Below, piece by piece: positions 163 to 34,756 of a stretch of DNA of 40,784 nt; the stretch's first letter is position 1; each line of letters begins with the position of its first letter. The stretch lies in assembly GCF_900099935.1 (NCBI RefSeq), contig NZ_FNEK01000046.1:1-40784 (forward strand), read 5' to 3'. Below the pieces are notes generated by a model that worked only from the letters and a program-made list of their open reading frames with translations, was not told the DNA's origin and ran no database searches. Source of the stretch: Aliiruegeria lutimaris (lineage in GTDB: Bacteria > Pseudomonadota > Alphaproteobacteria > Rhodobacterales > Rhodobacteraceae). The position numbers and the translations under genes were made by a program.

Positions 163-1071
163 TCAAATTCCGACCCTACCGGAGCATCTGCCCGACCGAA
201 GAACGCGGTCGATGTCGTCCGCATAAAGGAGTTCGGAATCGTCCCTTGGTGTATAGCCGAGCTTGCTGCGTGCGGTTTCCAGTGACCAGAAGGCGCGCGT
301 GTTGTCTGATATTCCGAAAACGACGAGCCATGGGACGCCATCTATTCCTTCGATCTCGGGTGACTCGGCCGCCGCGCGAAATAGTTCTGCACAGTCGTGG
401 GGGCTGAGATATGCGCCGAGCGCTCGTTTAAATCCCGCTACTCCGGTCGGTTTCGGCAGAGAGGTTGTCTGTGTCGCGCCAGTTGCGAGGAACTTCTCTG
501 CATTAATGGAATAGGGCGAACCGATGCGCAGGTGAACGACCTCCAGCTTGCGGCCAAAACTGCCGCAGGCATAGGGAAAACCGAGCAGTTCATATGACGC
601 CTTGGCCCAGCCGTAGAAATTGTCCGACAGTGGGTAATCGGATTCGGTGATCAACTCGCGCCGACGGCTATGGACTTGGCTGTGCTCGTACCAATCGCAG
701 GCGTGGTTGGACGAAACCATCACGACGCGCCGCACTCCTGCGTCATAGGCGCTGCGATAAACCCTTTGCGCGATGCGGATGTTGTCCATTTCGGTGTCGA
801 ACCGGTCGATCTGCGGTGGTTCCAACCCATAGACATCGCCTTTCTCCGAGGAATGGATATAGGCGCTGTGAATGACCACCTCGACACCGTGGAAAAGCTC
901 CGCGAGCTTGTCGTCTTCGTCCCGAAGCAGATCGCATTCGGCGAAGCAGGTGCTGTCGGGGAGCGACTTGGGACACGCTCTGTCGGTGAGCAGAAGGTCG
1001 TGCCGCTCGGCAATCTTGGCCAACCCCATCTGAGCCACGTGGCCTGAGGCGCCGGTGACGAGAATTTTCAT
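163..1071 (-). CDS. NAD-dependent epimerase/dehydratase family protein (copy A)
   Basis: Predicted 302-aa cytosolic Rossmann oxidoreductase of the extended SDR (epimerase/dehydratase) type. A dinucleotide-binding GxxGxxA pattern sits at residues 7-13, a serine pair at 120-121, and the catalytic Y-x3-K is Y153/K157 (YGWAK). I chose the ATG at 1071 over an upstream in-frame start because it overlaps the stop of the preceding gene by 4 nt (ATGA), the junction used throughout this operon. It is the last gene of the left operon. Family members act on nucleotide sugars, uronates or other hydroxy/keto substrates, and I cannot name the substrate. A second epimerase lies at 34950-35825, and both sit next to a CFCxxC protein, which suggests linked function. 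Confidence 0.85.
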   Translation of the reverse strand: MKILVTGASGHVAQMGLAKIAERHDLLLTDRACPKSLPDSTCFAECDLLRDEDDKLAELFHGVEVVIHSAYIHSSEKGDVYGLEPPQIDRFDTEMDNIRIAQRVYRSAYDAGVRRVVMVSSNHACDWYEHSQVHSRRRELITESDYPLSDNFYGWAKASYELLGFPYACGSFGRKLEVVHLRIGSPYSINAEKFLATGATQTTSLPKPTGVAGFKRALGAYLSPHDCAELFRAAAESPEIEGIDGVPWLVVFGISDNTRAFWSLETARSKLGYTPRDDSELLYADDIDRVLRSGRCSGRVGI

Positions 1072-2279
1072 GTCTGTTTCTCCCCTTCCTTGAGCGCGGC
1101 CGCGATCCAATCGAGACGATCGAGCGGCATCATGGCGTAGTGGTAGAAGGCAAGGTTATTGGCGCCCGCCGTGCGGGCCGCCTGCGTTTTGGCGCGCAAG
1201 TCGATTGGTGTCTTGCAATCTATCGCTAGTGGGCGAAGCGCAACGGCCATCCGCGTTTCTGTACCCAGGGCTTCGCGGTACTGGCGCAATTGGACCGACA
1301 ATTCCTCGGCGGTGCCCGTGTAACCGAGAACGACGTATTCGTCGCTTGTCGCCGCGACGTCCGCAGGATCGATGCCTAGCAGGTTTCGGGCGATGCCGAC
1401 CACGTCATCGCTCGCGCTCACTCCCGGCAACGCATGATGCATCGCGCCCGCGTGGTCCATGAAGGACAACTCAACCCCCGCAGGAACGAGTTCCGACCTC
1501 ACCTCGGCCACCAGCGACGATACGACCGAGCAGCGTTGCCGACAAAACCGCCGAAGATCCTCGCCCAGATCCGGTCGTTTCGGCGTTAGCCGACCCTGCC
1601 AGATCGGGTCAAGGGCGCGATGTATGGCCTGTGCCAGGGCCTTCATGTCGATGCCGGCCTGCTCTCCCGCTTCCTGGCAATGTGAGCAGAAGCAAAGCGA
1701 CATCAGGCCCCGTGCCCAGCCGGGCAGGGCGATTAGATAACGTTCATGGTGTTCGCCATGTTCCAGCGTCCGATAGTGGAGCGCTTCGGCCAGCAGCCGC
1801 CGGACCGGGTATCTCGCGATTTCCCGCGCCAGAGCCCGGCAGTAGTTCCGGACGTCGGGATTGGCCGGACAAAGATCGGACAGGTGGGGATCGCCATAGA
1901 CATTGTGTATGGCGCAATCCGGGAGGGCCGTGGCCAGGCGCGAGTTGTGAAGGAAGATCGTCCAGGCGCTGACACTGATGTCACGCTCGCCGGCTGCAAC
2001 GCAAAGATCTTCCAGCACGTCGTTTCCGTCAGCGGCATCTGCCAGCTTGGGAACGAAACCCTCCGGGTAGATGTCGGGCCGAGGCTTGAACCAGGCAATA
2101 TCTCCTTCGTGGCGGTATACGCGATAGCGCGGGTTGTGGGGGAAGACATCGCGCGCATCGTGGTAGGTGGCAGACAGGATCACGTCAGTGGCACCGGCGC
2201 GGAGCTGCAAGGCATCGAGGACATGGCCGGTGCCTTCGTGGCGCAGATCGGTCCCGAATATGAAAACGGATGTTTGCAT
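1068..2279 (-). CDS. Unrecognised conserved protein with HNSRL and CFCxxC motifs (copy A)
   Basis: A 403-aa soluble protein with no signal peptide or membrane segment; I do not recognise a characterised family. Visible motifs are AWTxxxHNSRL (HNSRL at 111-115), LCP at 136-138, HHE at 177-179, CFCSHC at 196-201, and a C-terminal FYHY...LDWIAAAL. The protein at 33605-34756 (383 aa) shares all of these in the same order, so the two are paralogues, by eye roughly a third identical. The pattern of short conserved blocks with paired Cys and His could suit a TIM-barrel hydrolase-like fold or a metal site, but this is inference. The gene follows the hydroxyacid dehydrogenases by 43 bp and overlaps the epimerase gene by 4 nt. 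Confidence 0.8.
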   Translation of the reverse strand: MQTSVFIFGTDLRHEGTGHVLDALQLRAGATDVILSATYHDARDVFPHNPRYRVYRHEGDIAWFKPRPDIYPEGFVPKLADAADGNDVLEDLCVAAGERDISVSAWTIFLHNSRLATALPDCAIHNVYGDPHLSDLCPANPDVRNYCRALAREIARYPVRRLLAEALHYRTLEHGEHHERYLIALPGWARGLMSLCFCSHCQEAGEQAGIDMKALAQAIHRALDPIWQGRLTPKRPDLGEDLRRFCRQRCSVVSSLVAEVRSELVPAGVELSFMDHAGAMHHALPGVSASDDVVGIARNLLGIDPADVAATSDEYVVLGYTGTAEELSVQLRQYREALGTETRMAVALRPLAIDCKTPIDLRAKTQAARTAGANNLAFYHYAMMPLDRLDWIAAALKEGEKQT

Positions 2280-2322
2280 TCCGATTAATCCCGTTGCAAC
2301 GCGCGGTCGTTCGTCGATGCCG

Positions 2323-3288
2323 TCAATACCATAAGGACTTGTCCACGAGATTGATCAGCTCTTGTCCCGCCGTGAAACGCTTGGCGTTTTCGCACAGTAC
2401 CGCAAGGCGTCGTTCGGGAATGTAGGGGCCGACGACAGCGACATGCGGCGTGAGGATGGCGCGCTCTTCTTTCCATAACGGATGATCAGGCGGGAGCGGT
2501 TCCTGCTCGAAAACGTCCAGACCCACTCCGCGCAACCGGCCCGACTGCAAGGCCTCGGTAACCGCATCCAGTCGCACCGTGGCACCGCGACCGATATTGA
2601 TCAACAAGGCGGAGGATTTCATCAGCGCCAGCCTTTTGTCGTCGAACATCCCCTCGCTCTCGGGCGTGTGCGGCAGTGTGAGAACGACCGCGTCGGCCCG
2701 TGGGAGAATACGGTCGAGCTCCGCAGGCTTGTGCATTTCCTGTAAACCCTCGGGGCAGTCCGTGCGGCGGGGATCTATGCCGATCACCCGGGCGCCGAAG
2801 GTGGCCACCATCCGACCGATCTCGGCACCGATACCACCGACCCCGATCACGAGAACGGTGCTTTCGGGCAAGTGCAGTATGTCCTGATCGTCCAGATAAC
2901 GCACCCACGCCCCGGTGGGTTGCTGGCGCATGTAGGGGGGCAGATTGCGTGCAAGGCTCAGCAACATCGTTACCGCGTGGGTGGCGACGTGGTCGTTGTA
3001 GATACCGCGGTAGTTCGTGACCTGGACGGGGTGAGCCACCAGTTCAGGAGAGAAAAACCCGGCGGGCGGCGCCGCCATCGGCGCCTGCAGCCAGCGCAGC
3101 TTTCCGGCGAGAGATAGGAGTTCGGGGTCAAGCGTCCCGTAGGCGCCATCTGCTTCCGGCAACAGCCGTATCGCGGCCTCACGGTCAGGCGCGATCTGAA
3201 CGGTCAATGTCGGCGCCGCCTCAGACACGGCCCTTGCCCAGGCCTCGGTCAATTCGTCTGTTGGTGGAAGGATTACGAAGTTGCTCAT
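2323..3288 (-). CDS. D-2-hydroxyacid dehydrogenase (NAD-binding), downstream copy
   Basis: A 321-aa member of the D-isomer-specific 2-hydroxyacid dehydrogenase family, which interconverts 2-oxo acids and D-2-hydroxy acids with NAD(P)H (glyoxylate/hydroxypyruvate reductases and relatives). The Rossmann GxGxxG is at 149-154, and the catalytic triad appears complete: R234 (NIGRG), E263 (EPLP), H282 (TPH). Length is usual for the GhrA/short branch. The ATG at 3288 forms a 4-nt ATGA overlap with the upstream dehydrogenase gene and follows an AAAGGGGC purine run; longer in-frame extensions only read into that gene. Its place behind a peptide ABC importer suggests it acts on an oxo or hydroxy acid released from the imported compound (inference). 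Confidence 0.88.
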   Translation of the reverse strand: MSNFVILPPTDELTEAWARAVSEAAPTLTVQIAPDREAAIRLLPEADGAYGTLDPELLSLAGKLRWLQAPMAAPPAGFFSPELVAHPVQVTNYRGIYNDHVATHAVTMLLSLARNLPPYMRQQPTGAWVRYLDDQDILHLPESTVLVIGVGGIGAEIGRMVATFGARVIGIDPRRTDCPEGLQEMHKPAELDRILPRADAVVLTLPHTPESEGMFDDKRLALMKSSALLINIGRGATVRLDAVTEALQSGRLRGVGLDVFEQEPLPPDHPLWKEERAILTPHVAVVGPYIPERRLAVLCENAKRFTAGQELINLVDKSLWY

Positions 3289-4250
3289 CTTGGCCCCTTT
3301 GAGACGTCGTGGCCGAGCCGGTTGACCCATTGGGCGCCGCGGCCCGTGAACGCGGCCAGGTTCTTTTCGAATATCGCTCCCCAACGCCGACCGAAGCCCG
3401 GGCTGGCACCGGCGTTGTGCGCGGTCACGATGACCTTGGGATTGCTCCAGAGCCGGGAGTCGGTCGGCAAGGGTTCGACAGCGGTCACATCCAGGCCGGC
3501 GCCGCGGAGCGCACCGGTTTCAAGCGCTGCGAGCAGCGCCGGCTCGTCGATCAGGCTGCCGCGACCGATGTTCACAATCCAGCCATCTGCCAGAGCTTCC
3601 AACTCCGACGCGCCAATCACCGGGCGGCCGTCGGGGCGCGCCGGCGAGGCCAGCACAACGATATCGGCCCACGCGCAGAGCGCCTGAAGCTGGTCGGCGC
3701 CGCGCACATCTTCGACCCTTCCATCGTAGGTTGAGGGATCGCGTTTAATGCCGGCCACGGACATGCCCCAGTCGAGCGCGCGCTGCGCGATCATATCGCC
3801 GATCCGGCCCAGACCGACGACCAACAGCTTGCGTCCCGCTAGTTCATCGCCGACCATCGGTTGCCATCGCGCATGTTCCATGTTTCGTGAAGCCTCTCCA
3901 ATCCGACGTGTCAGGCCGAGCAGCAAGGCAAAGGCGTGTTCAGTGACGCAGTTCGTATGCACGCCGGCGGCGGTTGACAGCACGATGCCCTGCGCATCGA
4001 AACGGTCGAGCGGGTACTGTTCGAAGCCTGCCCCGGTCCCGGCGATCCAGCGCAATGACGGCGTCAGAAACTCCGTGCGCCAGGTATGCGTGACAAGGAC
4101 CGTTCCGCCCGCCGCCAGCGCCTCGGCGACACCGGCATCATCAGCGGGACACATTGCCTCAATGTCTGTTCGCGTGATAAGAAAATCACGCACGCCGGGG
4201 GGCAGGGCGTGGTGCAGGACAACTATGGGCGTGTTCATTGTGCGGTTCAT
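3285..4250 (-). CDS. D-2-hydroxyacid dehydrogenase (NAD-binding), upstream copy
   Basis: A 321-aa protein of the same family as its downstream neighbour. GLGRIG is at 146-151, and catalytic residues are R230 (NIGRG), E259 (VEPLP) and H278 (TAHNAG). The two dehydrogenases are clearly different in sequence, so this is an old divergence and not a recent tandem duplication; separate substrates are likely. Start is ATG at 4250, 10 bp after the permease stop, with an alternative ATG at 4238; neither has a strong ribosome-binding site. It is translationally coupled to the next gene. The activity (glyoxylate, hydroxypyruvate or bulkier 2-oxo acid reduction) cannot be chosen from sequence. Confidence 0.87.
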   Translation of the reverse strand: MNRTMNTPIVVLHHALPPGVRDFLITRTDIEAMCPADDAGVAEALAAGGTVLVTHTWRTEFLTPSLRWIAGTGAGFEQYPLDRFDAQGIVLSTAAGVHTNCVTEHAFALLLGLTRRIGEASRNMEHARWQPMVGDELAGRKLLVVGLGRIGDMIAQRALDWGMSVAGIKRDPSTYDGRVEDVRGADQLQALCAWADIVVLASPARPDGRPVIGASELEALADGWIVNIGRGSLIDEPALLAALETGALRGAGLDVTAVEPLPTDSRLWSNPKVIVTAHNAGASPGFGRRWGAIFEKNLAAFTGRGAQWVNRLGHDVSKGPR

Positions 4251-4260
4251 GTGAGAGCGG

Positions 4261-5169
4261 TTATAGAAGGGTGTCGGGGTTTTTGCCGATGCTGCTGTGA
4301 TTGGGGTCGAGCACATCGCGGATGGCGTCTCCCAACACGTTGAAGGCCAGCATGAGCAAGACCAGCGCTACAGTGGGCCAGATAACCAACCAGGGCGCTA
4401 TTGTGATGAAGTCGCGTCCCTTGGACAGCATGCTGCCCCAGTCGGCCTGCGGCGGGCTGACGCCCAGTCCGAGAAAGCTGAGCGATGCATAGGCCAACTG
4501 CGCAGTCGACATGCTCAGTGCGGCCAGCACGATCACGGGCGGCAGAACGTTGGGAAGGATGTGACGGATCAGGATGACCGGCGTGCTGACACCGGCCAGA
4601 CGTGCGGCATCGAGGAACTCGCTGCTCTTGATGCTCAACGCGCTTGCCCGGGCCATGCGGGCGAAGCGCGGGGAATAAACGATCGCGATCGCCAGAGACG
4701 CGTTGAACAGACCCGGTCCCAGAACCGCGACAAGAATGATCGCCAGTAGAAGGGTGGGAAATGCGAACAGCACATCCTGGCTTCGGTTCAGCACCGCGTC
4801 GACATACCCGCCGAAATACCCGGAAACGACGCCGATGACGACTCCAACCGCCATCGCGATCGAGACCGAGAGGAATGCCACGGCCACCGCGATGCGCGAT
4901 CCGTCGATGACCCGGCTCAACGTGTCGCGGCCCAATTCGTCTGTGCCGAACCAGTGCGAGGCCGAAGGTGAAGACAGCAGGCTTACATAGTCGTTCGCGT
5001 TGGGGTCGTAAGGCGCAACGAAACGGCCAAACGCAGCCAGAAAGATGAACAGCAACATGATCGCCAAGCCGAAGGCGCCGCCTTTGTGGCGCAACAGTTG
5101 ATCCAGGAGCATCGGCCGACCCAGGCGATGGCCGGGCATTTGGGTGTCGGGGGAAACGGTCATGGTCAT
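4261..5169 (-). CDS. Peptide/nickel-type ABC transporter permease, DppC-like (importer 1)
   Basis: A 302-aa inner-membrane permease of the DppC/OppC family. There is an N-terminal membrane helix at about 33-52, then the family motif HWFGTDELGRD at 72-82, further helices, the ATPase-contact loop EFLDAARLAG at 184-193, SFLGLG at 231-236, and a C-terminal GDAIRDVLDP at 280-289. The start at 5169 overlaps the DppB-like gene by 4 nt (ATGA). A second ATG two codons in is possible. It forms the translocation pore with the adjacent DppB-like protein. Confidence 0.93.
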   Translation of the reverse strand: MTMTVSPDTQMPGHRLGRPMLLDQLLRHKGGAFGLAIMLLFIFLAAFGRFVAPYDPNANDYVSLLSSPSASHWFGTDELGRDTLSRVIDGSRIAVAVAFLSVSIAMAVGVVIGVVSGYFGGYVDAVLNRSQDVLFAFPTLLLAIILVAVLGPGLFNASLAIAIVYSPRFARMARASALSIKSSEFLDAARLAGVSTPVILIRHILPNVLPPVIVLAALSMSTAQLAYASLSFLGLGVSPPQADWGSMLSKGRDFITIAPWLVIWPTVALVLLMLAFNVLGDAIRDVLDPNHSSIGKNPDTLL

Positions 5170-8188: not shown

Positions 8189-8201
8189 TTCGGTTCCGGG
8201 A

Positions 8202-10101: not shown

Positions 10102-11247
10102 ATGTATGATCTGCTCCTCAAAGGTGGCCGGTTGATCGACCCTTCTCAGAACATGGACGGGACGTTCGATGTGGCATTCGCCGACGGCAAGGTCGCCGCG
10201 ATCGAGGCAGATATCGACGCAACCCTATCCAGAGACGTGCGTGACGTTACCGGCAAGATCGTCAGCCCCGGGCTGATCGATTTGCACACCCATGTCTATT
10301 GGGGAGGAACGTCGCTGGGAGTCGATGCCGAAACCATCGCGCGGCGCAGCGGTACAACGACCTTCGTCGACGCGGGCAGCGCGGGAGCGGGAAATATCGC
10401 CGGTTTCAGGAAGCACGTGATCGAGCCTTCAGCCCCGCGCATCCTGGCCTATCTCAATATCTCGTTTCCCGGAATCTATGCGTTCTCGAAAACGGTGATG
10501 GTTGGCGAGTGCGAGAATCTTAGGCTTCTCGATGCGCGCGAGTGCTTGCGGGCTGCACGCGAGCATCTGGATATCATCGTTGGAATGAAGGCGCGCGTCG
10601 GGGCCCGCGCCGGGGGCAGTTCCGGCATGGCGCCTTTGTCGCTGGCGATCGAGGTTGCCGATGCGCTCGGGCTGCCGGTCATGGCCCATATCGACAATCC
10701 GCCGCCCACGCGCGACGAGGTCCTGGCCGCGCTGCGACCGGGCGATATCCTGACGCATTGCTACCGGCCGTTCCCGAACGCACCGATCCACGGAGACCGT
10801 ACGATCCGCCAGGAGATACTAGAGGCGCGCGACCGGGGGATCATCTTCGATATCGGGCACGGTTATGGCGGATTCAGTTTCGAATCCGGGGTGGCGATGC
10901 TGGAAGAGGGGATAAAACCCGATGTGCTCAGCAGTGACGTGCATGTGCTATGCGTCGATGGTCCGGCCTATGATGTTCTGGCGGTCATGTCCAAGTTCAT
11001 GGCCCTGGGGATGACGCTGACCGAGGTGATTGCCGCGGCGACGATCAATCCAGCCAGGGCCATTCGGCGCGAGGATATCGGCACGCTCAAGGTCGGGGCG
11101 GCGGGCGATGCGACCATCGTCGTCGAACGCAGAGGGCGCTTCGAGCATACCGATGCCGTCGGCGAAACCATCACCTCCGACACCCGGCTCGAACACGATG
11201 GAATCGTGATCGGGGGAGCGTGGTGGCAGGACGCGGCGGAGACCTGA
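10102..11247 (+). CDS. Amidohydrolase-superfamily metallohydrolase, Atu3266-like (copy 1)
   Basis: A 381-aa cytosolic metal-dependent hydrolase. Ligands appear complete: H62 and H64 (HTH), candidate bridging lysine K163, H196 (AHID), H219 (THC), H253 (GHG) and D279 (SSDVH). The overall layout matches the EF_0837/Atu3266 branch of the dihydroorotase-like amidohydrolases, some of which deacylate N- or O-acetylated (R)-configured acids; that link is from family knowledge. The second copy at 13665-14810 has all these residues at identical positions. It is followed by two PLP-enzyme genes in the same direction. A likely role is removal of an acyl group before PLP chemistry (inference). Confidence 0.9.
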   Translation: MYDLLLKGGRLIDPSQNMDGTFDVAFADGKVAAIEADIDATLSRDVRDVTGKIVSPGLIDLHTHVYWGGTSLGVDAETIARRSGTTTFVDAGSAGAGNIAGFRKHVIEPSAPRILAYLNISFPGIYAFSKTVMVGECENLRLLDARECLRAAREHLDIIVGMKARVGARAGGSSGMAPLSLAIEVADALGLPVMAHIDNPPPTRDEVLAALRPGDILTHCYRPFPNAPIHGDRTIRQEILEARDRGIIFDIGHGYGGFSFESGVAMLEEGIKPDVLSSDVHVLCVDGPAYDVLAVMSKFMALGMTLTEVIAAATINPARAIRREDIGTLKVGAAGDATIVVERRGRFEHTDAVGETITSDTRLEHDGIVIGGAWWQDAAET

Positions 11248-11274
11248 TTGCGAAACGCAACGATAGGTGCACTC

Positions 11275-11292
11275 CTCTGCCCAGAGTTTTTA
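11275..11292 (+). terminator. Weak hairpin plus T-run after amidohydrolase 1
   Basis: CTCTG / CAGAG with a 2-4 nt loop followed at once by TTTTT, in the 128-bp gap between the amidohydrolase and the first PLP gene. The stem is short, so it is at best a leaky terminator. A small TTGCG-AAA-CGCAA repeat lies just upstream at 11248-11260. Confidence 0.25.
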
Positions 11293-11375
11293 CTAAGAAG
11301 CCGCTCGCTGCCGGCTTCGCACGCGGATCTCCGGTCGTGTTCGGTCGCTGCAGCGCAGATTGAAGGAGCCATTTC

Positions 11376-12500
11376 ATGCCGCAATGCCCCGCCGCCCGTA
11401 TCGGTGACAAGCGAGACGACATTGACACCCCCGCTCTGGTCGTCGATCTCGACGCGCTGGAGGCCAATATCGCGTATATGGCGGAGTTCGCCGCCGCCAG
11501 CGGCGTTCGGCTGCGCCCTCATGCAAAGACGCATAAATGTTCGGCCATCGCGCGGCTCCAGATCGAGGCGGGAGCCGTCGGGGTGTGTTGCCAGAAGGTC
11601 GGCGAGGCCGAGGCCATGGCCAATGGCGGTGTCTCCGACGTCCTGGTGACGAACGAAGTGGTCGGAGCGAGGAAGCTCGAAAGACTGGCCGCCTTGTCCA
11701 AGCGAATTACAGTGGCCGTTTGTGCGGACAATGCGGAGAACGTCGATGCGCTCGACGCCGCTGCGGCAAAGTATGACACTGTGCTATCCGTCCTTGTCGA
11801 AGTCGATGTCGGGGCCGGACGCTGTGGCGTGCGCCCGGGCGAGGAGGCGCTGGATCTCGCCCGGCGCATCAATTCTGCTCCGAACCTCAGGTTCGGCGGC
11901 ATTCAAGCTTATCACGGGCCGGCCCAGCATGTGCGAAGCCACGAAGAACGGGCGCTAACCATTGCAAAAGGCGGCGACGCGCTGCGCCACACGCTGGAGC
12001 TGCTGAAAGCCGACGGGTTGGAATGTGACATCGTGGGCGGGGCGGGAACCGGCAGTTACGCTTTCGAGGCCGCGAGTGGCCTGTGGAATGAACTGCAGGT
12101 CGGCTCCTACGTGTTCATGGATCACGATTATGCCCTGAACCTCGATGCCTCTGGCGGCCCGGTCGATACGTTCCGCCACAGCTTGACGATCAAGACAACG
12201 GTGATGAGCACGCCCAGCCCCACACTGGTTGCCACCGATGCCGGTCTCAAGGCTTACACAACGGATTGTGGGCTGCCCGCCCTGGTTGATCGCCCGCATG
12301 GCTCGATTTTCAAGGCGGCGGACGAACACACGATGATCTCCTTTTCCGAGCCCGAAGTGCGGCCAGCCCTGGGCGAGGCTCTTTACCTGATACCCGGGCA
12401 TTGCGATCCGACCGTCAACCTGCACGACTGGATCATCGGGGTGAGGGACGATCGCGTGGAGTGCTTGTGGCCCGTCGATGCGCGCGGAGCGGTTTTCTGA
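11376..12500 (+). CDS. 3-hydroxy-D-aspartate aldolase-like PLP enzyme (BhcC/DTA family)
   Basis: A 374-aa fold-type III PLP enzyme (alanine-racemase-like barrel plus a metal-binding C-terminal domain). The Schiff-base lysine is K51 in RPHAKTHK; further family blocks are CCQKVGEAEA, YHGPAQH, GAGTGSYAFEAASG and GSYVFMD. The metal ligands H342 and D344 lie in PGHCDPT, the HxD form of D-threonine aldolase and 3-hydroxyaspartate aldolase. The blocks are strongly reminiscent of BhcC of the beta-hydroxyaspartate cycle, which splits (2R,3S)-3-hydroxyaspartate into glycine and glyoxylate. Start ATG has a GAAGGAG site 7 nt ahead. BhcA and BhcB homologues are not beside it, so I call the family and leave the exact substrate open. 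Confidence 0.85.
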   Translation: MPQCPAARIGDKRDDIDTPALVVDLDALEANIAYMAEFAAASGVRLRPHAKTHKCSAIARLQIEAGAVGVCCQKVGEAEAMANGGVSDVLVTNEVVGARKLERLAALSKRITVAVCADNAENVDALDAAAAKYDTVLSVLVEVDVGAGRCGVRPGEEALDLARRINSAPNLRFGGIQAYHGPAQHVRSHEERALTIAKGGDALRHTLELLKADGLECDIVGGAGTGSYAFEAASGLWNELQVGSYVFMDHDYALNLDASGGPVDTFRHSLTIKTTVMSTPSPTLVATDAGLKAYTTDCGLPALVDRPHGSIFKAADEHTMISFSEPEVRPALGEALYLIPGHCDPTVNLHDWIIGVRDDRVECLWPVDARGAVF

Positions 12501-12565
12501 TCGGATTCCGAGACAAAACGGCGCCTGAAGCCATGGCCATGACGAAAATGAGGGAGAAAGACAGC

Positions 12566-13624
12566 ATGTCTCTGGATGGGATCGATACCCCCGCAGTGCT
12601 CGTGGACCTGGACAAGGCGGAGGCAAATATTCGGGCATTCCAGGCCTACGCAGATCGGCATGGGCTGAAGGTTCGGCCCCACATCAAGACACACAAACTG
12701 CCGCGCTTGGCAGCTTACCAGGTAGCGCAGGGCGCGGTGGGGATCACGTGCCAGAAGGTGTCCGAAGCCGAGGCGATGGTGGTGGGAGGCGAGGTGGACG
12801 ATGTCCTGATCACCTACAACATCCTTGGCGAAAAAAAGCTGCGCCGGCTGCGCGCATTGTCGGAGCGCATCCGGCTTTCGGTGGTTGCCGACAATCTCGT
12901 CGTGGCAGAGGGGCTGAGCGCGACCTTTCGGGGCGCCGAGGGGCCGCTGGATGTCCTGGTGGAGTGCAATACCGGCGCCGATCGCTGCGGCGTGGAAAGC
13001 CCGGAGGCGGCGGCGGAACTGGCGAAGGCGATCGAGGCCATGCCGGGGCTTCGGTTCGCGGGGTTGATGACCTATCCACCAATAGGCAAACCCGGAGCCG
13101 TGGCGGACTGGCTCGGCCGGGCAAAGGCATTGATCGAGGCAGAGGGGATCGGCGTTCCCACGATCTCGTCGGGCGGCTCGCCGGACATCTGGAAGGCACA
13201 CGAGATGCCGTTGGCAACCGAGTACCGTGTCGGGACCTACGTCTACAACGACGGGTTTCTCGTCGGGCAGGGAACCTGCGCGTGGGAGGATTGCGCGCTG
13301 ACCGTTCTGGCGACGGTCGTTTCCGTTCCTGCGGAGAATCGCGCGGTCATCGACGCCGGATCCAAGGTGCTGACCTCCGACCTGCTAGGGCTGGAGGGAC
13401 ATGGCCGCATACTCGGGCGTCCCGACCTTGCGATCGACCAACTCAGCGAAGAACACGGCCGGATCGTTTCCGAAGGTCCGGTTGGCCTCGCGGTCGGGCA
13501 ACGCCTGCGAATTGTCCCGAACCACGCTTGCGTGGTGTCGAACATGCTCGATCAGGTCGAACTGGTAAGGGGGGAGACGTATCTGGGATCAACGCCGGTG
13601 GCAGCACGTGGAAAGGTCTGGTGA
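12566..13624 (+). CDS. D-threonine aldolase / D-serine dehydratase-like (DSD1) PLP enzyme
   Basis: A 352-aa fold-type III PLP enzyme paralogous to its upstream neighbour. The PLP lysine is K41 in RPHIKTHK. The C-terminal metal motif is HxC (H320, C322 in PNHAC), the form seen in zinc-dependent D-serine dehydratase, unlike the HxD of the gene before it. This suggests a dehydratase or aldolase acting on another D-hydroxyamino acid. The ATG at 12566 follows AGGGAG at good spacing; in-frame extension upstream runs into the previous gene and is rejected. It begins 65 bp after that gene and ends convergent with amidohydrolase 2. Confidence 0.87.
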   Translation: MSLDGIDTPAVLVDLDKAEANIRAFQAYADRHGLKVRPHIKTHKLPRLAAYQVAQGAVGITCQKVSEAEAMVVGGEVDDVLITYNILGEKKLRRLRALSERIRLSVVADNLVVAEGLSATFRGAEGPLDVLVECNTGADRCGVESPEAAAELAKAIEAMPGLRFAGLMTYPPIGKPGAVADWLGRAKALIEAEGIGVPTISSGGSPDIWKAHEMPLATEYRVGTYVYNDGFLVGQGTCAWEDCALTVLATVVSVPAENRAVIDAGSKVLTSDLLGLEGHGRILGRPDLAIDQLSEEHGRIVSEGPVGLAVGQRLRIVPNHACVVSNMLDQVELVRGETYLGSTPVAARGKVW

Positions 13625-13643
13625 CCTCCGACGCCTCGGCCGA

Positions 13644-13660
13644 GGGTCGCCTTCCGACCC
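13644..13660. terminator. Hairpin in 40-bp convergent gap
   Basis: GGGTCG / CGACCC (6 bp, 5-nt loop), directly preceded by the self-complementary CCTCGGCCGAGG at 13634-13645, between two convergent stop codons. No T-tract on either side; a bidirectional end point is plausible but unproven. Confidence 0.4.
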
Positions 13661-13664
13661 GCCC

Positions 13665-14810
13665 TCAGCCCGATTGCGGCCTTTCGAACCACTTGCCGCC
13701 GATCACGCAACCCTCGGCAAAGATCCGGCGCTCGCTGGTCACCGTTTCACCCTCAACGTCCTCAAGCTCGAAGGCGCCGGTTTGCACTGACAGCACCGAG
13801 GCGTCCCCGACAGCCCCGACCCGTAGCGTTCCGAGATCGGGCCGCTGCAGGGCCTTCGCCGGGGTTTCCGTGGTGGCGCGGATGACCTCATTGAGGTCCA
13901 TGCCAAGTGGCAGGAACTTGGACATCGTGGTCACGAGATCGTAGGCGGGGCCGTCGATGCACAACGCGTGGACATCGCTGGAAATCACGTCGGGCAGGAA
14001 ACCTGCCGCCACCATTCCGCGCGCGGTTTTCCACCCGAAGGAGCCCATGCCGTGACCGATGTCGAATATCACGCCCCGCTCCCGCGCCGCCAGGACCTCG
14101 GGTTTGACTCGCCCATCCCGCGATAGCGGTGAATTCGGGAAAGGACGGAAGCAGTGTGTCAGGATATCACCCGGCCGCAGCATATCGACGACCGCCTCGT
14201 AGCTGGGCGGGGGCTCGTCGATATGGCACATGAGCGGCAACCCGGTTTCGTCAGCTACCTGAAGCGCAACGATCAGCGGGTCGATGCCGGACGGGCCGGA
14301 CGCGTGATGGCCGACCCGGACCTTGATGCCGATGATGTTCTCCGGATCCGACCCGGCCACCTCGACCGCTTCGCGCGGCGCCATGAGGCGCATGTCGTGA
14401 CTTTCGCCCACCATGACCGTCCGTGAGAATCCAAAGATCCCCGCAAAGGAAACGTGCAGGTATACGAGAATGCGCGATCTGGCGGGTTCGATGACATGTT
14501 TGCGAAACCCCGCATAGGAGCCGGGACCGGCGCTGCCGGTATCCACTGTCGTGGTCACGGCGGACGCGCGGGCATAGTCATCGGCGTCGATCCCGAGCGA
14601 AGTGCCGCCCCAGTAGACATGGGTGTGCAGGTCGATCAGGCCCGGTGTGACGATCAGCCCGCCAAGATCAGCGGTTTCCTTTGCCTCGCCATTCAAGGCC
14701 CCCCCGATCGCGGCGACGCGGCCGTCCCTGAAGGCTACATCGCATGGTCCGTCGATACCCTGCGACGGATCGATCACGTGGGCGTTTCGGAGCAGAAGAT
14801 CGAAGGTCAT
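13665..14810 (-). CDS. Amidohydrolase-superfamily metallohydrolase, Atu3266-like (copy 2)
   Basis: A 381-aa paralogue of the protein at 10102-11247, same length and with H62, H64, K163, H196, H219, H253 and D279 at identical positions. The PGLIDLHTHVYWGGTSLG block is preserved; the rest differs widely, so substrate preference may differ. It is the last gene of the central operon, 50 bp after RidA, and meets the second PLP gene tail to tail. As in copy 1, the family link is to metal-dependent deacylases of N- or O-acyl D-acids. The ATG at 14810 has only a weak AAGG site upstream. Role in the operon: probably hydrolysis of the compound brought in by importer 2 (inference). Confidence 0.9.
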   Translation of the reverse strand: MTFDLLLRNAHVIDPSQGIDGPCDVAFRDGRVAAIGGALNGEAKETADLGGLIVTPGLIDLHTHVYWGGTSLGIDADDYARASAVTTTVDTGSAGPGSYAGFRKHVIEPARSRILVYLHVSFAGIFGFSRTVMVGESHDMRLMAPREAVEVAGSDPENIIGIKVRVGHHASGPSGIDPLIVALQVADETGLPLMCHIDEPPPSYEAVVDMLRPGDILTHCFRPFPNSPLSRDGRVKPEVLAARERGVIFDIGHGMGSFGWKTARGMVAAGFLPDVISSDVHALCIDGPAYDLVTTMSKFLPLGMDLNEVIRATTETPAKALQRPDLGTLRVGAVGDASVLSVQTGAFELEDVEGETVTSERRIFAEGCVIGGKWFERPQSG

Positions 14811-14860: not shown

Positions 14861-15226
14861 TCAGGCGGGCTTGTAGGCGACTGCCTCGATCTCGACGGCA
14901 ATGTCGATCATCAGCCGCGATTCCGCGGTGGACCGGGCCGGCGGATCGGATGGAAAGGATTCGGCATAGGCCGCGTTGAATTCGGAGAAGTCATCGCGGT
15001 CACGTAGCCAGACGGTCGTCTTGACAACGTCGGCGAGCGTGCAGCCGGCCATCTCCAGGCAGGCTTCGATGTTCTTCATGACCTGGCGGGTCTCGGCCTT
15101 AACGCCGCCTGGCACGACATTGCCGCTGCCATCGACCGGCACCTGGCCGGATACGAACACGAAATCGCCGCAGCGAACGGCCGGCGAGAGTGGCACATGC
15201 GAGGTGCCGAAGCATTGCTTGCTCAT
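14861..15226 (-). CDS. RidA (YjgF/YER057c/UK114) family protein
   Basis: A 121-aa protein of the RidA family, whose members hydrolyse reactive enamine/imine intermediates such as 2-aminoacrylate released by PLP enzymes. The arginine that binds the substrate carboxylate in RidA corresponds to R98 (PPARST) and the conserved glutamate to E112 (VEIEAVA). The usual N-terminal VSGQVP block is at 25-30. A strong AAAGAGGAG ribosome-binding site precedes ATG. Its place between an importer and an amidohydrolase, near two PLP enzymes of the dehydratase/aldolase type, fits an imine-clearing role, although some operon-linked family members are instead pathway-specific deaminases. Confidence 0.92.
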   Translation of the reverse strand: MSKQCFGTSHVPLSPAVRCGDFVFVSGQVPVDGSGNVVPGGVKAETRQVMKNIEACLEMAGCTLADVVKTTVWLRDRDDFSEFNAAYAESFPSDPPARSTAESRLMIDIAVEIEAVAYKPA

Positions 15227-27529: not shown

Positions 27530-27668
27530 GCGGAGCTGTGTCCTTGCGCTGCTGCCGTCCTCAAGAGTCCTGCATAACGCAATAGAATATTGGCATTTTA
27601 TCGCCGTCCAATCGCTCTCTAGATTTTGCGGCAGAACAACAAAGCAACTGGGAGAGAAATAGCCAGCC

Positions 27669-28691: not shown

Positions 28692-28717
28692 GTTCCTGTA
28701 GTCAAACGAGAACGAGG

Positions 28718-28757
28718 GGCAGGGAGCGTCATGTCTGACGGTCTCTGCCGCTGTTTT
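28718..28757 (+). terminator. Attenuator-like hairpin between DctP and DctQ
   Basis: 14-position stem from 28718-28731 to 28736-28749 with 12 Watson-Crick pairs, one G-U and one G-G mismatch, a 4-nt loop TGTC, then GCTGTTTT. It sits in the 97-bp gap after the binding-protein gene. It fits a partial rho-independent terminator that raises binding-protein over membrane-subunit expression. Confidence 0.6.
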
Positions 28758-28788
28758 CCGAAGTGAATCAAGCAAGGAAGGGGACGTC

Positions 28789-29304
28789 ATGGCTAACCTG
28801 CCGCGGAAATTGGTGAACCGGATTTCCGATTCGACTGAGGCTCTGACAGGGCTGCTTCTGTTGGTCGTGGTGGCGCTCAACCTTGCCCAGATCTTTTTTC
28901 GCTATGTCGTGGTTGACCCGATCTCGTGGTCGGAAGAGGCGATGCGCTACGCCACGACTTGGATGGTCATGCTCGCGGCAGCGCCAGCCCTTTTGCGACA
29001 CGAACACATGGCGGTCGATTTTCTGCAGTACGATACTCCGCCGAAGTTGCGCCGAGTTGTCCGCCTCGTTTCGCAGGGTTGCGTTGCCGCGTTCTGCATC
29101 CTTCTTATCTGGAAGGGCTTTCCGGGCGCGATCGACAACATGCGACAGGTTTCTCCGGCGATCCGTGTTCCGATGACACTGCCCTATCTCGCCGTGCCAG
29201 TGGGCGCCGTGCTGATCTTGATAAACACGGTTGCCATGATGCTTCTTCCCGAAATGTCCACAGAGGACCTTGCGGCCACTTCACCCTCGGAGAAAGCTCA
29301 ATGA
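28789..29304 (+). CDS. TRAP transporter small permease, DctQ family
   Basis: A 171-aa inner-membrane protein with four predicted helices (about 20-38, 54-71, 91-109 and 131-150) and the family block RYVVVDPISWSEE following the first helix. AAGGAAGGGG precedes the ATG. It overlaps the large-permease start by 4 nt (ATGA) and forms the membrane complex with it. Confidence 0.94.
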   Translation: MANLPRKLVNRISDSTEALTGLLLLVVVALNLAQIFFRYVVVDPISWSEEAMRYATTWMVMLAAAPALLRHEHMAVDFLQYDTPPKLRRVVRLVSQGCVAAFCILLIWKGFPGAIDNMRQVSPAIRVPMTLPYLAVPVGAVLILINTVAMMLLPEMSTEDLAATSPSEKAQ

Positions 29305-30572: not shown

Positions 30573-30608
30573 AGTTCCATCCCTGAATCTCAAGCCCTAG
30601 GAAACCCC

Positions 30609-31583: not shown

Positions 31584-31593
31584 TCGGTCCGGG

Positions 31594-31614
31594 TCAGCGG
31601 TCACCAGCCGCTGA
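31594..31614. terminator. Hairpin at convergent gene ends
   Basis: TCAGCGG / CCGCTGA, 7-bp stem with a 7-nt loop, spanning the 17-bp gap between the convergent cyclodeaminase-family and PLP-enzyme genes and overlapping the latter's stop codon. It may end transcription in both directions; no long T-tract. Confidence 0.4.
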
Positions 31615-32770
31615 TCCGTTTCCACTCTTCGACCACCTCGATCCCGTCGCTTTCCTCGCTGTCGACGACGAAATAGCGAGGATACATTGACGCCGTCATG
31701 CAGACATGGTTGGGGTATATCCTGAGCCGGCTTCCGATGGTGAAATCGTCCAGCGCGTGTGGCAAAGCGACCGGAATGAGACCGTGCTCTTGGTACACCC
31801 GCGCAATCGTGAGTTGCGGCGAATACACTGAACCGTCGATATCAGCGGCGAGGCCGAAGCCAACATCGTTACTGACATTTTCGGTGCTGCGGTCCTTGGA
31901 CATCGCCAGGGCGCCGGCATCGACTGTCATGTGCCTTAGGTCCGCACGATGGCCGGTGACTTCGGTCAGTACCGAAACGGCGAGGTCCTCGAGATCACAA
32001 GTGAGGATCTGCGCCTGGAAAACGTCTCCGAACATGAACACACCGGCCCGGGTTTCGGTGACGCCTTCCAGATGGCGGGCGTGCAGTGCCGTGGGGGATG
32101 AGCCGACACTGACGGTGGGGCAGGGAATTCCGGTCGCGCGGATTCGTTCGGCTGCCGTAACCACGGCAAGACGTTCCGCTTCGGCCACCGCTTCGATCTC
32201 CTTCAACGACCGGCAGCCGTAAGAATGCCCCGCATGGGTCATGACGCCATCGAAAACGACATTCTCGTCCCCGGCCAGTGTCCTGGCGATTTCCAGCACA
32301 AGAGGGGAGTCGGGCTCAACGCCAGAACGCCGTTCGCCGCAGTCGATTTCGATCTGAACATGAAAGACTGCATTGGCTTCGGTTGCGTGGCGGCAAATCG
32401 CCTGCGCCGTCCCGAGATCGTCCGTGATCAGCGTGACGCGGGCGCCTTCCCGTTGAATTGCAGCGACGCGGTCCAGCTTGTCGGGGGTGATCCCGACTGC
32501 GTACTGGATGTCCCGGATCCCGTTGCTTGCGAAATACTCCGCCTCCAACAGGGTGGACACGGCAATTCCCGGGCTGTCCGGCCCATCGAAGAGCCGGGCC
32601 ACCTCGATCGATTTTGCCGTCTTTAGATGCGGGCGCAGTTTGACACCGGTGCGGGCACAGGCGGCCTTCATACGGGCGATGTTCCTGCGTAGCTTTGCGC
32701 GATCGAGCACAAGGCAGGGCGTCGGCAGGGTGAGGAGGGTCTTCCGGTTTGGCACGTTCGGTTCTTTCAT
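31601..32770 (-). CDS. DSD1/D-threonine aldolase-like PLP enzyme (third paralogue)
   Basis: A 389-aa fold-type III PLP enzyme. The Schiff-base lysine is K50 in RPHLKTAK, and the C-terminal metal motif is HxC (H355, C357 in PNHVC), as in D-serine dehydratase. It is longer than the other two copies and diverges early (RPHLKTAK in place of RPHxKTHK), so it is a separate branch. I take ATG at 32770; a TTG at 32791 overlapping the SDR stop is possible, and neither has a strong ribosome-binding site. It is the last gene of the trio CFCxxC protein-SDR-PLP enzyme. Confidence 0.87.
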   Translation of the reverse strand: MKEPNVPNRKTLLTLPTPCLVLDRAKLRRNIARMKAACARTGVKLRPHLKTAKSIEVARLFDGPDSPGIAVSTLLEAEYFASNGIRDIQYAVGITPDKLDRVAAIQREGARVTLITDDLGTAQAICRHATEANAVFHVQIEIDCGERRSGVEPDSPLVLEIARTLAGDENVVFDGVMTHAGHSYGCRSLKEIEAVAEAERLAVVTAAERIRATGIPCPTVSVGSSPTALHARHLEGVTETRAGVFMFGDVFQAQILTCDLEDLAVSVLTEVTGHRADLRHMTVDAGALAMSKDRSTENVSNDVGFGLAADIDGSVYSPQLTIARVYQEHGLIPVALPHALDDFTIGSRLRIYPNHVCMTASMYPRYFVVDSEESDGIEVVEEWKRISGW

Positions 32771-32787
32771 TCTTGCGGACCCGTAGG

Positions 32788-33588
32788 TCAATCCTTCGAC
32801 TCGAGTATGAACTCGTCGATCATCACGTTCATGCCTGCCATCAGCCCGCCATCGACCGGCAGCATCGCGCCCGTGATGTAGCTTGCATCTTCCGACGCCA
32901 GGAATGAGACGGCCTTGGCGATGTCCTCCGGTTCGGCCACCCGCCCCATCGGGTACCAGCGCGCCAGCTTGTTGAAGACGTCGGGATCTTTCCGGATGCG
33001 GATCTCCCAGGACGTGTTGTTGGTCCGAACCGAGCCGGGCAGGACCGCGTTGCAGCGAATGCCGTACTTGCCGAATTCCGAAGCCGTGGACTGCGTGAGA
33101 TTGATGATCCCCGCTTTTGCAGCGCTGTAGGCGGGATTGCCGAAATAGCGCATACCGTTGACGGAGGCGATATTGACGATGACCCCTGCGCGGCGATCGA
33201 TCATGCCAGGAAGGACCGCGCGAATGCAGTGATACGGGCCGTGAAGGTTGACATCTATCTCGCGGTGCCAGGAATCCAGCGCGATCGTTTCGATATCGCC
33301 GGCATCGGTGAAACCTGCATTGTTCACCAGCAGGTCGATAGGGCCAAGCGTCGTTTCGGTATCGGCAATCGCGCGGTCGACTGCGGCGAAATCGGTGATA
33401 TCGGCCTTCCGAAAGATTGCGGTACCGCCCCCATCGACGAGGCGCGCTGCGGTCGCCTCGGCCCGCTCGATGTCAATGTCCAGGATGCAGACAGCGGCTC
33501 CATCCTGCACCAGGCGCTCCGTGATTGCCTCGCCGATGCCCTGGCTGCCGCCGGTTACAATGGCCACAGGTTTGCTTGAAGTCGTCAT
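32788..33588 (-). CDS. Short-chain dehydrogenase/reductase (SDR), right block
   Basis: A 266-aa classical SDR. TGGSQGIG is at 12-19, NNAG at 89-92, catalytic S142, Y154 and K158 (YSAAKAG). The C terminus has TGAMLPVDGG plus a short tail. AAAGGACC precedes the ATG. It is 16 bp after the second CFCxxC protein gene and 17 bp before the start of the PLP enzyme, so the trio is one transcript. Typical activity is NAD(P)-linked oxidation of a hydroxyl group; a secondary alcohol or sugar-acid substrate is plausible. Confidence 0.92.
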   Translation of the reverse strand: MTTSSKPVAIVTGGSQGIGEAITERLVQDGAAVCILDIDIERAEATAARLVDGGGTAIFRKADITDFAAVDRAIADTETTLGPIDLLVNNAGFTDAGDIETIALDSWHREIDVNLHGPYHCIRAVLPGMIDRRAGVIVNIASVNGMRYFGNPAYSAAKAGIINLTQSTASEFGKYGIRCNAVLPGSVRTNNTSWEIRIRKDPDVFNKLARWYPMGRVAEPEDIAKAVSFLASEDASYITGAMLPVDGGLMAGMNVMIDEFILESKD

Positions 33589-33604
33589 TGAAGGTCCTTT
33601 CTTC

Positions 33605-34756
33605 TCAGGATGCGGTCAATGCGGCTGCAATCCAGTCAAGGGATTCGAGGCGCATGTGTCCGTAATTGTAGAATGAAATGGAGGTTGGCCGGAGCGCACG
33701 AAGGGCTTCGACCGCTCTGGTGACATCCTCGGCGCCGGCTAAGTTCGGGTAAGTCGGGCGGAGGATGAAACCCAGAGCGGCGTCGTTCCCGGCGGCCCGA
33801 GCCGCCCGGGTGGCATCGGAGGAAATGGCGGCGACGCCATTCTGATATGCCGGAATTTCGATCCTGTCCGCGGCGCTGGCCAGGCCGGCAAGGTCACTGC
33901 CTTCGATCCAACACAGATCGTTCGGGCTTTGCGTGGTCGGAATGATCGCCAGCGTGGCGTCGAAGGGCATTTCCGCCCGGATCTCGCTGGCCATGCTGGT
34001 CACGGTTTCGGCGCGCAGATGGAAATAGGCGACCCAGTCCGGATCCGTCTTCGGGTCCGTCACCGGTGCGGCTCCAGAGTGAAAATAGTCTTCGAGGTCG
34101 GTTCGGGCCGCGCGCTTGAGCCCGTCACCGTCTATCCCCGCGGCGCTCGCACGCGACAGGCAGGCAGTGCAGAAACAGGTGCCAAGCATGATCTGGACCA
34201 CGTCGGGAAGTTCGATCAGCTCGAACTCGTGGTGGTGCCCGTGCCGGAACGCTTGCCATCCCGGCGCTTCCAGGGCGACTTCACGCACGCCCGGCTGGCT
34301 GGCCGCGTCGGCGCAGAGCGCCTTGGCGAAATGGCGCACCTCGGGCTGCGAGGGGCAGAGAGAATTGATCAGCCGGTCCCCGAAGGCCGTTTCGACCGCC
34401 AGGTCCGGATGGGCTGCTCCGAGGCGCGAATTGTGCAGGCCGACCGTCCAGGCGGTAACGCCGAGATCCGGCGCATGTCGGGAAAGCTCCGAAAGGGCAT
34501 CGTATTCGCGTGCCATTCTCGCCTGTTGCGGGGCCAGAACGCGGTAACGGTTAGCCGATGGTCGGAAATAGACGGTGCCGTCCTCGGGAAAATATACTTT
34601 TCCCTGCGGCCCGTGGGGCCGGAGAAATTTGCCGGCATGGTAGCTTGTCGCGACCGAGACGGAATCGATCGATGCGTCCCGCAGTCTGGCCGCAACCTCG
34701 CAGACGCCTTCGTCGCGCAGGTCCCACGGATAGACATACATCGAATGGGTGGGCAT
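33605..34756 (-). CDS. Unrecognised conserved protein with HNSRL and CFCxxC motifs (copy B)
   Basis: A 383-aa soluble protein, paralogue of the one at 1068-2279. Shared blocks in the same order are DLRxEG (12-17), TAWTxxLHNSRL (HNSRL 108-112), LCP (133-135), HHHE (174-177), CFCTAC (194-199), AAGIDG near 205-210, and LDWIAAAL close to the C terminus. No signal peptide or membrane helix. Function is unknown to me; the paired Cys and His blocks could hold a metal. It is divergent from a second NAD-dependent epimerase and leads an SDR and a PLP enzyme. An in-frame ATG five codons in (34741) is an alternative start. Confidence 0.8.
   Translation of the reverse strand: MPTHSMYVYPWDLRDEGVCEVAARLRDASIDSVSVATSYHAGKFLRPHGPQGKVYFPEDGTVYFRPSANRYRVLAPQQARMAREYDALSELSRHAPDLGVTAWTVGLHNSRLGAAHPDLAVETAFGDRLINSLCPSQPEVRHFAKALCADAASQPGVREVALEAPGWQAFRHGHHHEFELIELPDVVQIMLGTCFCTACLSRASAAGIDGDGLKRAARTDLEDYFHSGAAPVTDPKTDPDWVAYFHLRAETVTSMASEIRAEMPFDATLAIIPTTQSPNDLCWIEGSDLAGLASAADRIEIPAYQNGVAAISSDATRAARAAGNDAALGFILRPTYPNLAGAEDVTRAVEALRALRPTSISFYNYGHMRLESLDWIAAALTAS

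Follow-up and report, generated by a model that had tools for sequence, protein, structure and literature searches.

An uncharacterised GHL10-related protein family with two copies on an Aliiruegeria lutimaris contig and a probable part in amino-sugar use

Introduction

Cwp19, a protein of the GHL10 family (PF02638), has been reported as a lytic transglycosylase (PMC6016235); its probable active-site residues are Trp127, Arg132, Asp196 (the second of a pair) and Tyr297, and GHL10 has a Gly where the usual strand-7 Glu stands (PMC5765458). In the use of amino sugars, the ong cluster, with the gene order ongC-R-B-D, turns oxidised N-acetylglucosamine into 2-keto-3-deoxygluconate (PMC9537276), and a structure of OngB is available (PMC12017989). 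For chitin use by haloarchaea, a route through glucosaminate has been predicted that employs glucose dehydrogenase, IclR and RutC-type genes (PMC12343721). Here, we describe an unnamed protein family with two copies, A and B, on contig NZ_FNEK01000046.1 of Aliiruegeria lutimaris (assembly GCF_900099935.1). The complete contig, 40,784 nucleotides long, was analysed and is referred to as the window. The copies represent a real, uncharacterised, GHL10-related family whose likeliest role is that of an amino-sugar glycosidase, and they probably help in the use of amino sugars rather than working with the 'epimerases' encoded next to them.

Two homologous copies in the window

The two family genes and their immediate neighbours are:

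163..1071, minus strand: PF01370 'epimerase' gene beside copy A (Pfam), with an ATGA overlap with copy A
1068..2279, minus strand: copy A of the unnamed family, 403 amino acids
31601..32755, minus strand: pyridoxal phosphate (PLP) enzyme, Ala_racemase_N and D-ser_dehydrat (Pfam)
32788..33588, minus strand: short-chain dehydrogenase (SDR) directly downstream of copy B (Pfam)
33605..34756, minus strand: copy B of the unnamed family, 383 amino acids
34950..35825, plus strand: divergent PF01370 gene beside copy B (Pfam)

The two proteins align over nearly their full length (BLASTP, 173 bits, E 1e-54, 31% identity over 396 amino acids). By this measure, the similarity is far beyond chance and the copies are true homologs. 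The HNSRL, LCP, HHE, CFCxxC and LDWIAAAL motifs, reported as shared by a first-pass annotation made from the sequence, were present in both. The same annotation could not assign the proteins to a characterised family, and the searches agreed: no Pfam model matched either copy at E up to 1, NCBIfam returned no line for copy A and a single line without meaning for copy B (thioribose-phosphate isomerase, E 0.16), and a PDB sequence search with copy A alone gave nothing significant (best E of 1). The gene arrangements were also as first described. The stop codon of copy A overlaps the ATG start of the gene that follows it by 4 nt, as ATGA; copy B is separated by 193 bp from the divergent PF01370 gene and leads the SDR gene, followed by the PLP gene. 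A scan of 34600-35100 identified no promoter or terminator pattern.

The copies had been called a duplication, which stood as far as homology and fell as far as a recent event is concerned. In a tree of 98 proteins, copy A joins L006, its ortholog from the same genus, and a Nonomuraea protein on a long branch, the latter join being marked as unsure, and possibly false, by the tree program; copy B is placed with the Rhodobacterales. On this tree, the copies are old, separate branches with no recent duplication. A genome of the same genus carries a collinear island: of the 35 window genes sought there, 33 were present at >55% identity, and the remaining two had been queried in the wrong frame. 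The identity was 73% for copy A, 80% for copy B, and 74% and 94% for the two PF01370 genes. The ratio of nonsynonymous to synonymous substitution rates (dN/dS) was 0.14 (copy A) and 0.12 (copy B); dS exceeded 1 and was near saturation. The proposal that a catabolic island with a sugar or sugar-acid type of gene set surrounds both copies was supported.

Relatives are present in bacteria and haloarchaea. A tblastn search with copy B matched 151 of 72,556 plasmid records, mostly from Rhizobium and also from haloarchaea, and a scan of species genomes, seeded with CFCxxC, returned at least 553 relatives, from which 80 loci were kept. The family was found in 3 of 60 related genomes and, with copy A as the query, in 5 of 385 genomes of the class, the genome of A. 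lutimaris itself being included in both counts; this low, patchy prevalence suggests an accessory trait. No relative carrying the patterns of copy B was found in viral contigs. Literature searches, aimed at pathways and at GHL10 as the family has no name to search by, found no description of it, and the accessible part of PMC13260240 contains nothing on it.

A conserved signature and its relation to GHL10

The invariant columns in an alignment of 61 members are Y39, H40, P47, W103, H108, N109, C134, E163, H172, H175, H176, E177, C194, F195, C196, C199, R248, G286 and Y304. Across the 92 family genes used for the neighbourhood analysis below, H40, W103, C134, E163, C194, C196 and C199 are present in all; H108 and H176 are each found in 91 (Arg takes the place of H108 in the one exception), H172 in 88 and E177 in 86. 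The key residues of the two copies are:

Copy B: H40, W103, H108, C134, E163, H172/H175/H176/E177, CFCxxC 194-199, R248, Y304, R333, FYNYG 362-366
Copy A counterparts: H40, W106, H111, C137, E165, H174/H177/H178/E179, CFCxxC 196-201, R249, Y320

The invariance of CFCxxC is partly built in, because this motif seeded the species-genome search; it is also kept in 10 plasmid and three whole-genome loci found without that seed. C134 together with C194-F-C196-xx-C199 may form a structural zinc site.

At E up to 1, 23 of the 61 members match the Pfam GHL10 model weakly, and the best of these matches (E 5.4e-7) may exceed the GHL10 cut-off. A profile comparison by hhalign with four GHL10 proteins gave 78% (E 1.8e-5, 122 columns), while the controls gave 0.8% (glycoside hydrolase family 42, GH42), 0.2% (amidohydrolase) and 0.1% (PLP). 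The alignment pairs W103 with the GHL10 Trp, H108 with its Arg, five residues on, and E163 with the first of the Asp pair. Strands 2-4, with the conserved Trp, the basic residue at W+5 and the strand-4 acid, were found to be shared with GHL10. The family is likewise without a conserved acid at the presumed strand 7, where R333 stands; motif order suggests strand 7 for R333 and strand 6 for Y304. The family appears to lie near GHL10, among the glycosidase-like triose-phosphate isomerase (TIM) barrels, with the fold beyond strand 4 predicted from this relationship. By a crude count, 1 of the 92 proteins has a long hydrophobic N-terminal run, so the family is probably cytosolic.

Other assignments were examined. 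Some GH42 beta-galactosidases carry a zinc site made of a Cys and a CxCxxC motif. GH42 membership of the family was rejected, as the hhalign control with five GH42 proteins was negative, their alignment is without CxCxxC, and PF02449 (GH42) is not one of the 20 families that the 61 members hit at E up to 1. Zinc-type GH42 proteins were sought in nine genomes, and none of the five hits listed, out of seven, had CxCxxC (one of the five, L121, was read in the wrong frame). No member exceeded the cut-off of the GHL6 model in 100 genomes, DUF4015 was matched by 3 of 15 family members, and PDB profile searches with 15- and 61-member alignments returned no significant hit.

Gene neighbourhoods across the family

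The neighbourhood set comprised 92 family genes, drawn from 90 loci out of 91; in the remaining one, L066, the family gene was lost in the picking of open reading frames (ORFs). Neighbouring genes were taken from a custom ORF picker with no gene caller, and the hidden Markov models (HMMs) used for counting were built from the same clusters that they count. As the loci are related to each other, the raw counts are not independent, and 31 clusters at 60% identity served as a check.

Within 5 kb of the 92 family genes, the counts were SDR 45, PLP enzymes of the D-serine/D-threonine type 34, RidA 28, Gfo/Idh/MocA 28, RpiR 21, AmidoH3 16, AspA/AstE 12, a VOC-like small protein 12, a DHOase-type amidohydrolase 11, OCD 8 and the epimerase cluster 8. 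For the 52 family genes with >9 kb on both sides, near (<5 kb) and far (5-10 kb) counts were compared: 23 and 7 for SDR, 23 and 6 for PLP, 16 and 5 for RidA, 18 and 2 for Gfo, and 5 and 0 for the epimerase. Counted per 31 clusters, SDR was found in 15, PLP in 15, RidA in 13, Gfo in four and the copy-B-type epimerase in two. SDR was the commonest direct same-strand downstream neighbour (36/92); copy B, with SDR and PLP genes next to it, has neighbours typical of the family. Deacylase-type genes were found in 48 of the 91 loci; the AmidoH3 protein of L046 matched D-aminoacylase at 500 bits and the solved PpOngB at 477 bits. Ten further loci (L005, L006, L098-L101 and L139-L142) were inspected outside the 92. 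There, an SDR hit was present in L140 and L141 (in the latter within a long open frame overlapping the family gene), RidA in L142, and Gfo and MlrC hits in L139.

Several loci carry recognisable pathway genes. Those of Andreprevotia (L058) and Chitinolyticbacter (L081) have the order PLP, RpiR, AmidoH3, RidA, family gene, plus one unassigned open frame each; the ong-type set of PLP deaminase, deacetylase, RidA and RpiR was found with a family gene in both. The same ong gene types are present in L064 and L077, rearranged and on both strands, and in L046 without RpiR. The Leeia locus (L064) has the order family gene, SDR, ATP-binding cassette (ABC) transporter, PLP, RpiR, AmidoH3, a kinase of the DGOK cluster and a KDPGal aldolase. 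This aldolase (289.7 bits, over the cut-off of 207) points to the galacto series; the kinase gave no NCBIfam line at 1e-20, and DGOK itself was matched in the L071 member. Both L064 and L085 further carry an SDR, a kinase of the DGOK cluster and an aldolase, the two aldolases belonging to one cluster, and the SDR gene overlaps the family gene in L064, L085 and L046. Directly upstream of the family gene in L085 (6645-9977) is a GH31 enzyme with NPCBM and F5/8 type C domains, as scanned in this locus; L071 likewise has a gene of the GH31 cluster immediately upstream, and in L044 and L045 one lies close to the family gene on the opposite strand.

A second group is of the phosphorylative type. In the acetic acid bacteria L072, L073 and L078, the family gene lies in a nag-type locus, which in Novacetimonas (L072) has the order sugar major facilitator superfamily (MFS) transporter, family gene, NagB, NagK-like, NagA. 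The bit scores were 255.5 for NagB (cut-off 236.9), 237 for NagA (cut-off 225.65) and 87 for the NagK-like protein (cut-off 370). The transporter matched gluP at 274.2 (over the cut-off of 202.55) and NagP at 263.1 (cut-off 625). No gene of L072 was assigned to the SDR or Gfo clusters.

Further neighbours were noted as separate observations. The small protein judged VOC-like by eye, mostly 111-128 amino acids long with FDHVGITTT near its start, is beside the family gene in 12 loci, including L061 (9666-10001), and the single member scanned had no Pfam match at E 0.05. A cluster of 325-amino-acid proteins (L035, 6199-7173) lies beside or near the family gene in four loci; the member scanned had no Pfam match at 1e-4. 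In L058, an open frame of 354 amino acids (11170-12231) directly follows the family gene, has no Pfam match at 1e-5 and may be spurious. In the haloarchaeal loci L011 and L012, the family gene lies in a cluster of sugar ABC transporter, creatininase, MR/MLE, SDR and Rid genes, where a creatininase-family enzyme is odd.

Proposed function

We tentatively propose, at a little under an even chance, that members of the family are cytosolic TIM-barrel enzymes of a glycosidase-like kind, related to GHL10, that act at the start of amino-sugar catabolism. Support for the class of pathway is fairly good; the reaction is a prediction. The analysis shows homology, conserved residues, a GHL10-like match of profiles across strands 2-4 and the neighbouring genes, and from these we infer the catalytic role, the fold past strand 4, the zinc site, the substrate and the order of steps.

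The enzyme would cleave an imported N-acetylhexosamine glycoside. The acid would be Glu163, an invariant residue at the end of strand 4. The second group might be His108, aligned with the Arg132 proposed for GHL10, or the 2-acetamido group of the substrate. Such a group assists catalysis in other N-acetylhexosaminidases (GH18, GH20), and its use here would make a strand-7 nucleophile unnecessary. In an oxidative route, the SDR would convert the freed sugar to an N-acetylhexosaminate, an N-deacylase would remove the acetate, the PLP enzyme and RidA would deaminate the product to a 2-keto-3-deoxy-hexonate, and a kinase followed by a KDPGal/KDPG aldolase would complete the sequence. The phosphorylative route would use NagK, NagA and NagB. 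Since the family occurs in two amino-sugar routes that otherwise differ, it should act before they part, and the release of N-acetylhexosamine from a glycoside would be the simplest such step.

A bolder version is that of a new cytosolic glycosidase family, with a zinc-type Cys4 site and an active site that is either Glu/His or substrate-assisted, as the first enzyme of a so far undescribed route for N-acetylgalactosamine (GalNAc) of the non-phosphorylative type; we consider it speculative and unlikely to hold in full. The family enzyme would be followed by an SDR 1-dehydrogenase, an N-acetylgalactosaminate deacetylase, the PLP deaminase with RidA, a 2-keto-3-deoxygalactonate kinase and KDPGal aldolase, with a GH31 enzyme encoded immediately upstream of the family gene at two loci and close to it at two others.

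Several observations weigh against the proposed function. The GHL10 profile match is confined to strands 2-4; when 10 members were scanned singly, three matched GHL10, the best at 23.6 bits, and none reached the cut-off of 27.9. In the PDB profile searches, Cwp19 was at the top with the 15-member alignment (E 0.015) and was gone with the 61-member one. E163 needs a one-residue shift, because the important Asp of Cwp19 is the second of its pair. The proposal does not account for the His-rich loop (H172, H175, H176, E177), which could bind a metal. Of the 92 genes, two have DGOK and one has the KDPG/KDPGal aldolase cluster within 5 kb (six and five loci at any distance), and 22 of 91 loci are without a PLP, deacylase-type, RidA or nag marker. 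L078 has no NagB hit, and the NagA/NagB-type genes of L061 and the NagA of L064 are below their cut-offs. AmidoH3 matches amino-acid and sugar-acid deacylases about equally, so that N-acyl-D-amino-acid substrates are also possible. In the window, no SDR or PLP gene lies within 5 kb of copy A, although copy A sits at the contig end, and its surroundings (an ABC transporter, two 2-hydroxyacid-dehydrogenase-like genes and the PF01370 gene) are left unexplained by amino-sugar chemistry. The substrate in the window may differ from that of other family loci.

Alternative explanations

A rather unlikely alternative is a lactone- or ring-opening hydrolase: the SDR would oxidise a hexosamine at C1 to the lactone, which the family would open. 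The SDR is directly downstream on the same strand at 36 of the 92 genes, with the overlaps in L064, L085 and L046, and the operon of L064 has no further gene recognised as a lactonase. Against this, the nag-type locus L072 has the family, no assigned SDR and no need for a lactonase. Eight Rhizobium-type loci carry an Amidohydro_2 cluster whose representative matches L-fucono-1,5-lactonase best (134.6 bits, cut-off 400), and most of the eight are without an SDR within 5 kb (L008 and L096 have one). The kinship with GHL10 also points to glycosidic bonds.

An isomerase or epimerase acting on N-acetylhexosamine or its acid, and feeding both routes, would account for the oxidative and the nag-type loci alike, and TIM barrels with His-rich sites are often isomerases. 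The GHL10-like strand-4 acid with its Trp/basic pattern speaks against it, as do the Pfam, NCBIfam and PDB profile searches, which gave no significant link to an isomerase family, and we regard it as improbable.

In dehydrogenase-assisted cleavage, a ring hydroxyl would first be oxidised by an SDR or a Gfo/Idh/MocA enzyme, and the family protein would then release the aglycone from the resulting keto sugar by elimination. This would suit the frequency of SDR (45/92) and Gfo/Idh/MocA (28/92) neighbours, and no strand-7 nucleophile is seen. The Gfo representative matches inositol 2-dehydrogenase and UDP-GlcNAc 3-dehydrogenase models, below cut-off. However, the nag-type locus L072 and several Rhizobium-type loci (L083, L084, L086, L088 and L092) are without an SDR or Gfo gene within 5 kb, and we regard the scheme as quite improbable.

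A metal-dependent amidase or deacylase of N-acyl D-amino acids, and no sugar enzyme, could be read from the D-amino-acid-type PLP, RidA and D-aminoacylase-like neighbours and from the conserved His cluster. This is very unlikely, as the 48 of 91 loci noted above already have deacylase-type genes, and the KDPGal aldolase, DGOK, NagA/NagB and GH31 neighbours of some loci are sugar enzymes.

The first-pass annotation had taken an epimerase to be the partner class of the family. A PF01370 gene lies within 5 kb of 9 of the 92 family genes; the density of PF01370 hits in this one genome (43 in 5.81 Mb, 0.083 per gene) would give about 7.6. Seven of the nine belong to the copy-B clade, and the other two are L075, where the distance is 3.8 kb, and copy A. 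Among the loci examined, the cluster of the gene at 34950..35825 was found only in the copy-B Rhodobacterales clade and in L075, and a copy-B-type epimerase neighbour is mostly a feature of one clade. A GxxGxxG screen of near neighbours gave 21 proteins, nine of them unassigned; eight of the nine were scanned (all except 6477-7421 of L023) and none was PF01370. This screen missed L075, which was found by HMM, and ORFs already in the SDR, Gfo and ABC clusters were outside it. When neighbours of homologues were tabulated, the preference suggested by the annotation stood for SDR, a common partner, and fell for the epimerase, which occurs at about chance. The two 'epimerases' of the window are only remotely alike (E 0.005, 24% over 132 amino acids). 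The top NCBIfam match of the 163..1071 protein was the NAD-dependent glucose-6-phosphate dehydrogenase Azf (95.7 bits, under the cut-off of 400), and its one weak PDB match was a mutated uronate dehydrogenase (E 1.6e-6); these matches make an aldose/uronate-type dehydrogenase the more likely product. It is therefore highly improbable that the family protein and an NAD-dependent epimerase act as a pair to open or oxidise a sugar acid, even with a PF01370 neighbour at both window copies that is kept in the sister species and partners weakly like Azf and uronate dehydrogenase, since the association is about as frequent as chance and the two epimerases are remote from each other.

Other genes in the window

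The remaining genes of interest are:

2323..4316, minus strand: two 2-hydroxyacid-dehydrogenase-like genes upstream of copy A, named by eye from the translation
10102..11247, plus strand: amidohydrolase/deacetylase (PRK09237, 425.8 bits, cut-off 371)
11376..12500, plus strand: second Ala_racemase_N-type PLP enzyme
12401..13624, plus strand: third Ala_racemase_N-type PLP enzyme (listed frame; the true start is probably further in)
13665..14810, minus strand: second amidohydrolase, of the cluster of 10102-11247
14861..15226, minus strand: RidA-type protein, clustering with an L081 protein that matches PF01042
30609..31583, plus strand: ornithine cyclodeaminase/mu-crystallin family (best NCBIfam match iminosuccinate reductase BhcD, 382.1 bits, cut-off 500)

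The nearest solved relative of the PLP enzyme at 31601..32755 is D-threo-3-hydroxyaspartate dehydratase (310.9 bits). Three of the nine Ala_racemase_N hits of the genome are on this 40.8 kb contig (binomial p 2.8e-5, for a question posed post hoc). With RidA, two deacetylase-like amidohydrolases and several transporters also present, the gene set of the window fits amino-sugar chemistry; the PLP, RidA and amidohydrolase genes are within the island and outside any single operon with copy A. Both 2-hydroxyacid-dehydrogenase-like genes were also found in the same-genus genome.

Two side observations were made. From 10102 to 14810, an inverted pair of same-cluster amidohydrolases flanks two Ala_racemase_N PLP genes, and this block is kept in the same-genus genome. 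An MlrC-like gene at 25941-27470 was read from the sequence as an M81 metallopeptidase; relatives from its cluster lie within 5 kb of a family gene in four loci.

Comparison with known systems

The family has at least 553 relatives in the species-genome scan, and its two window copies matched no curated Pfam or NCBIfam family. If the proposed function is right, the family would account for a step, so far unassigned, in how soil, rhizosphere, marine and haloarchaeal microbes break down material that contains chitin or GalNAc, and would offer a soluble GHL10 relative for testing how glycosidases without a strand-7 acid work.

The family resembles GHL10 in the profile over strands 2-4, the Trp, the basic residue at W+5, the strand-4 acid and the lack of a strand-7 acid. 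It differs in scoring below the Pfam cut-off when members are scored singly, in having a single Glu for Asp-Asp and His for Arg (Arg in 1/92), in adding Cys4 and HxxHHE, and in having no recognised signal peptide. The strand-4 Glu is shared with GH42 beta-galactosidases (PMC5765458), which are set apart by the hhalign score of 0.8% for five proteins and by an alignment without CxCxxC.

Compared with the ong cluster of Pseudoalteromonas, L058 and L081 have the same order of a Fold-III-type PLP enzyme, RpiR, a D-aminoacylase-like deacetylase and RidA. In contrast, the eight ong genes listed in the accessible text (PMC9537276) include neither a family-like extra protein nor an SDR; the SDR that often follows the family gene suggests a start from the unoxidised amino sugar. 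The glucosaminate route predicted in haloarchaea resembles the haloarchaeal family loci, yet the accessible part of that paper names no such protein (PMC12343721). In the nag-type locus L072, a sugar MFS transporter, nagB, a nagK-like gene and nagA surround the family gene; the family has no known nag role, and would fill the slot where a hexosaminidase might be expected.

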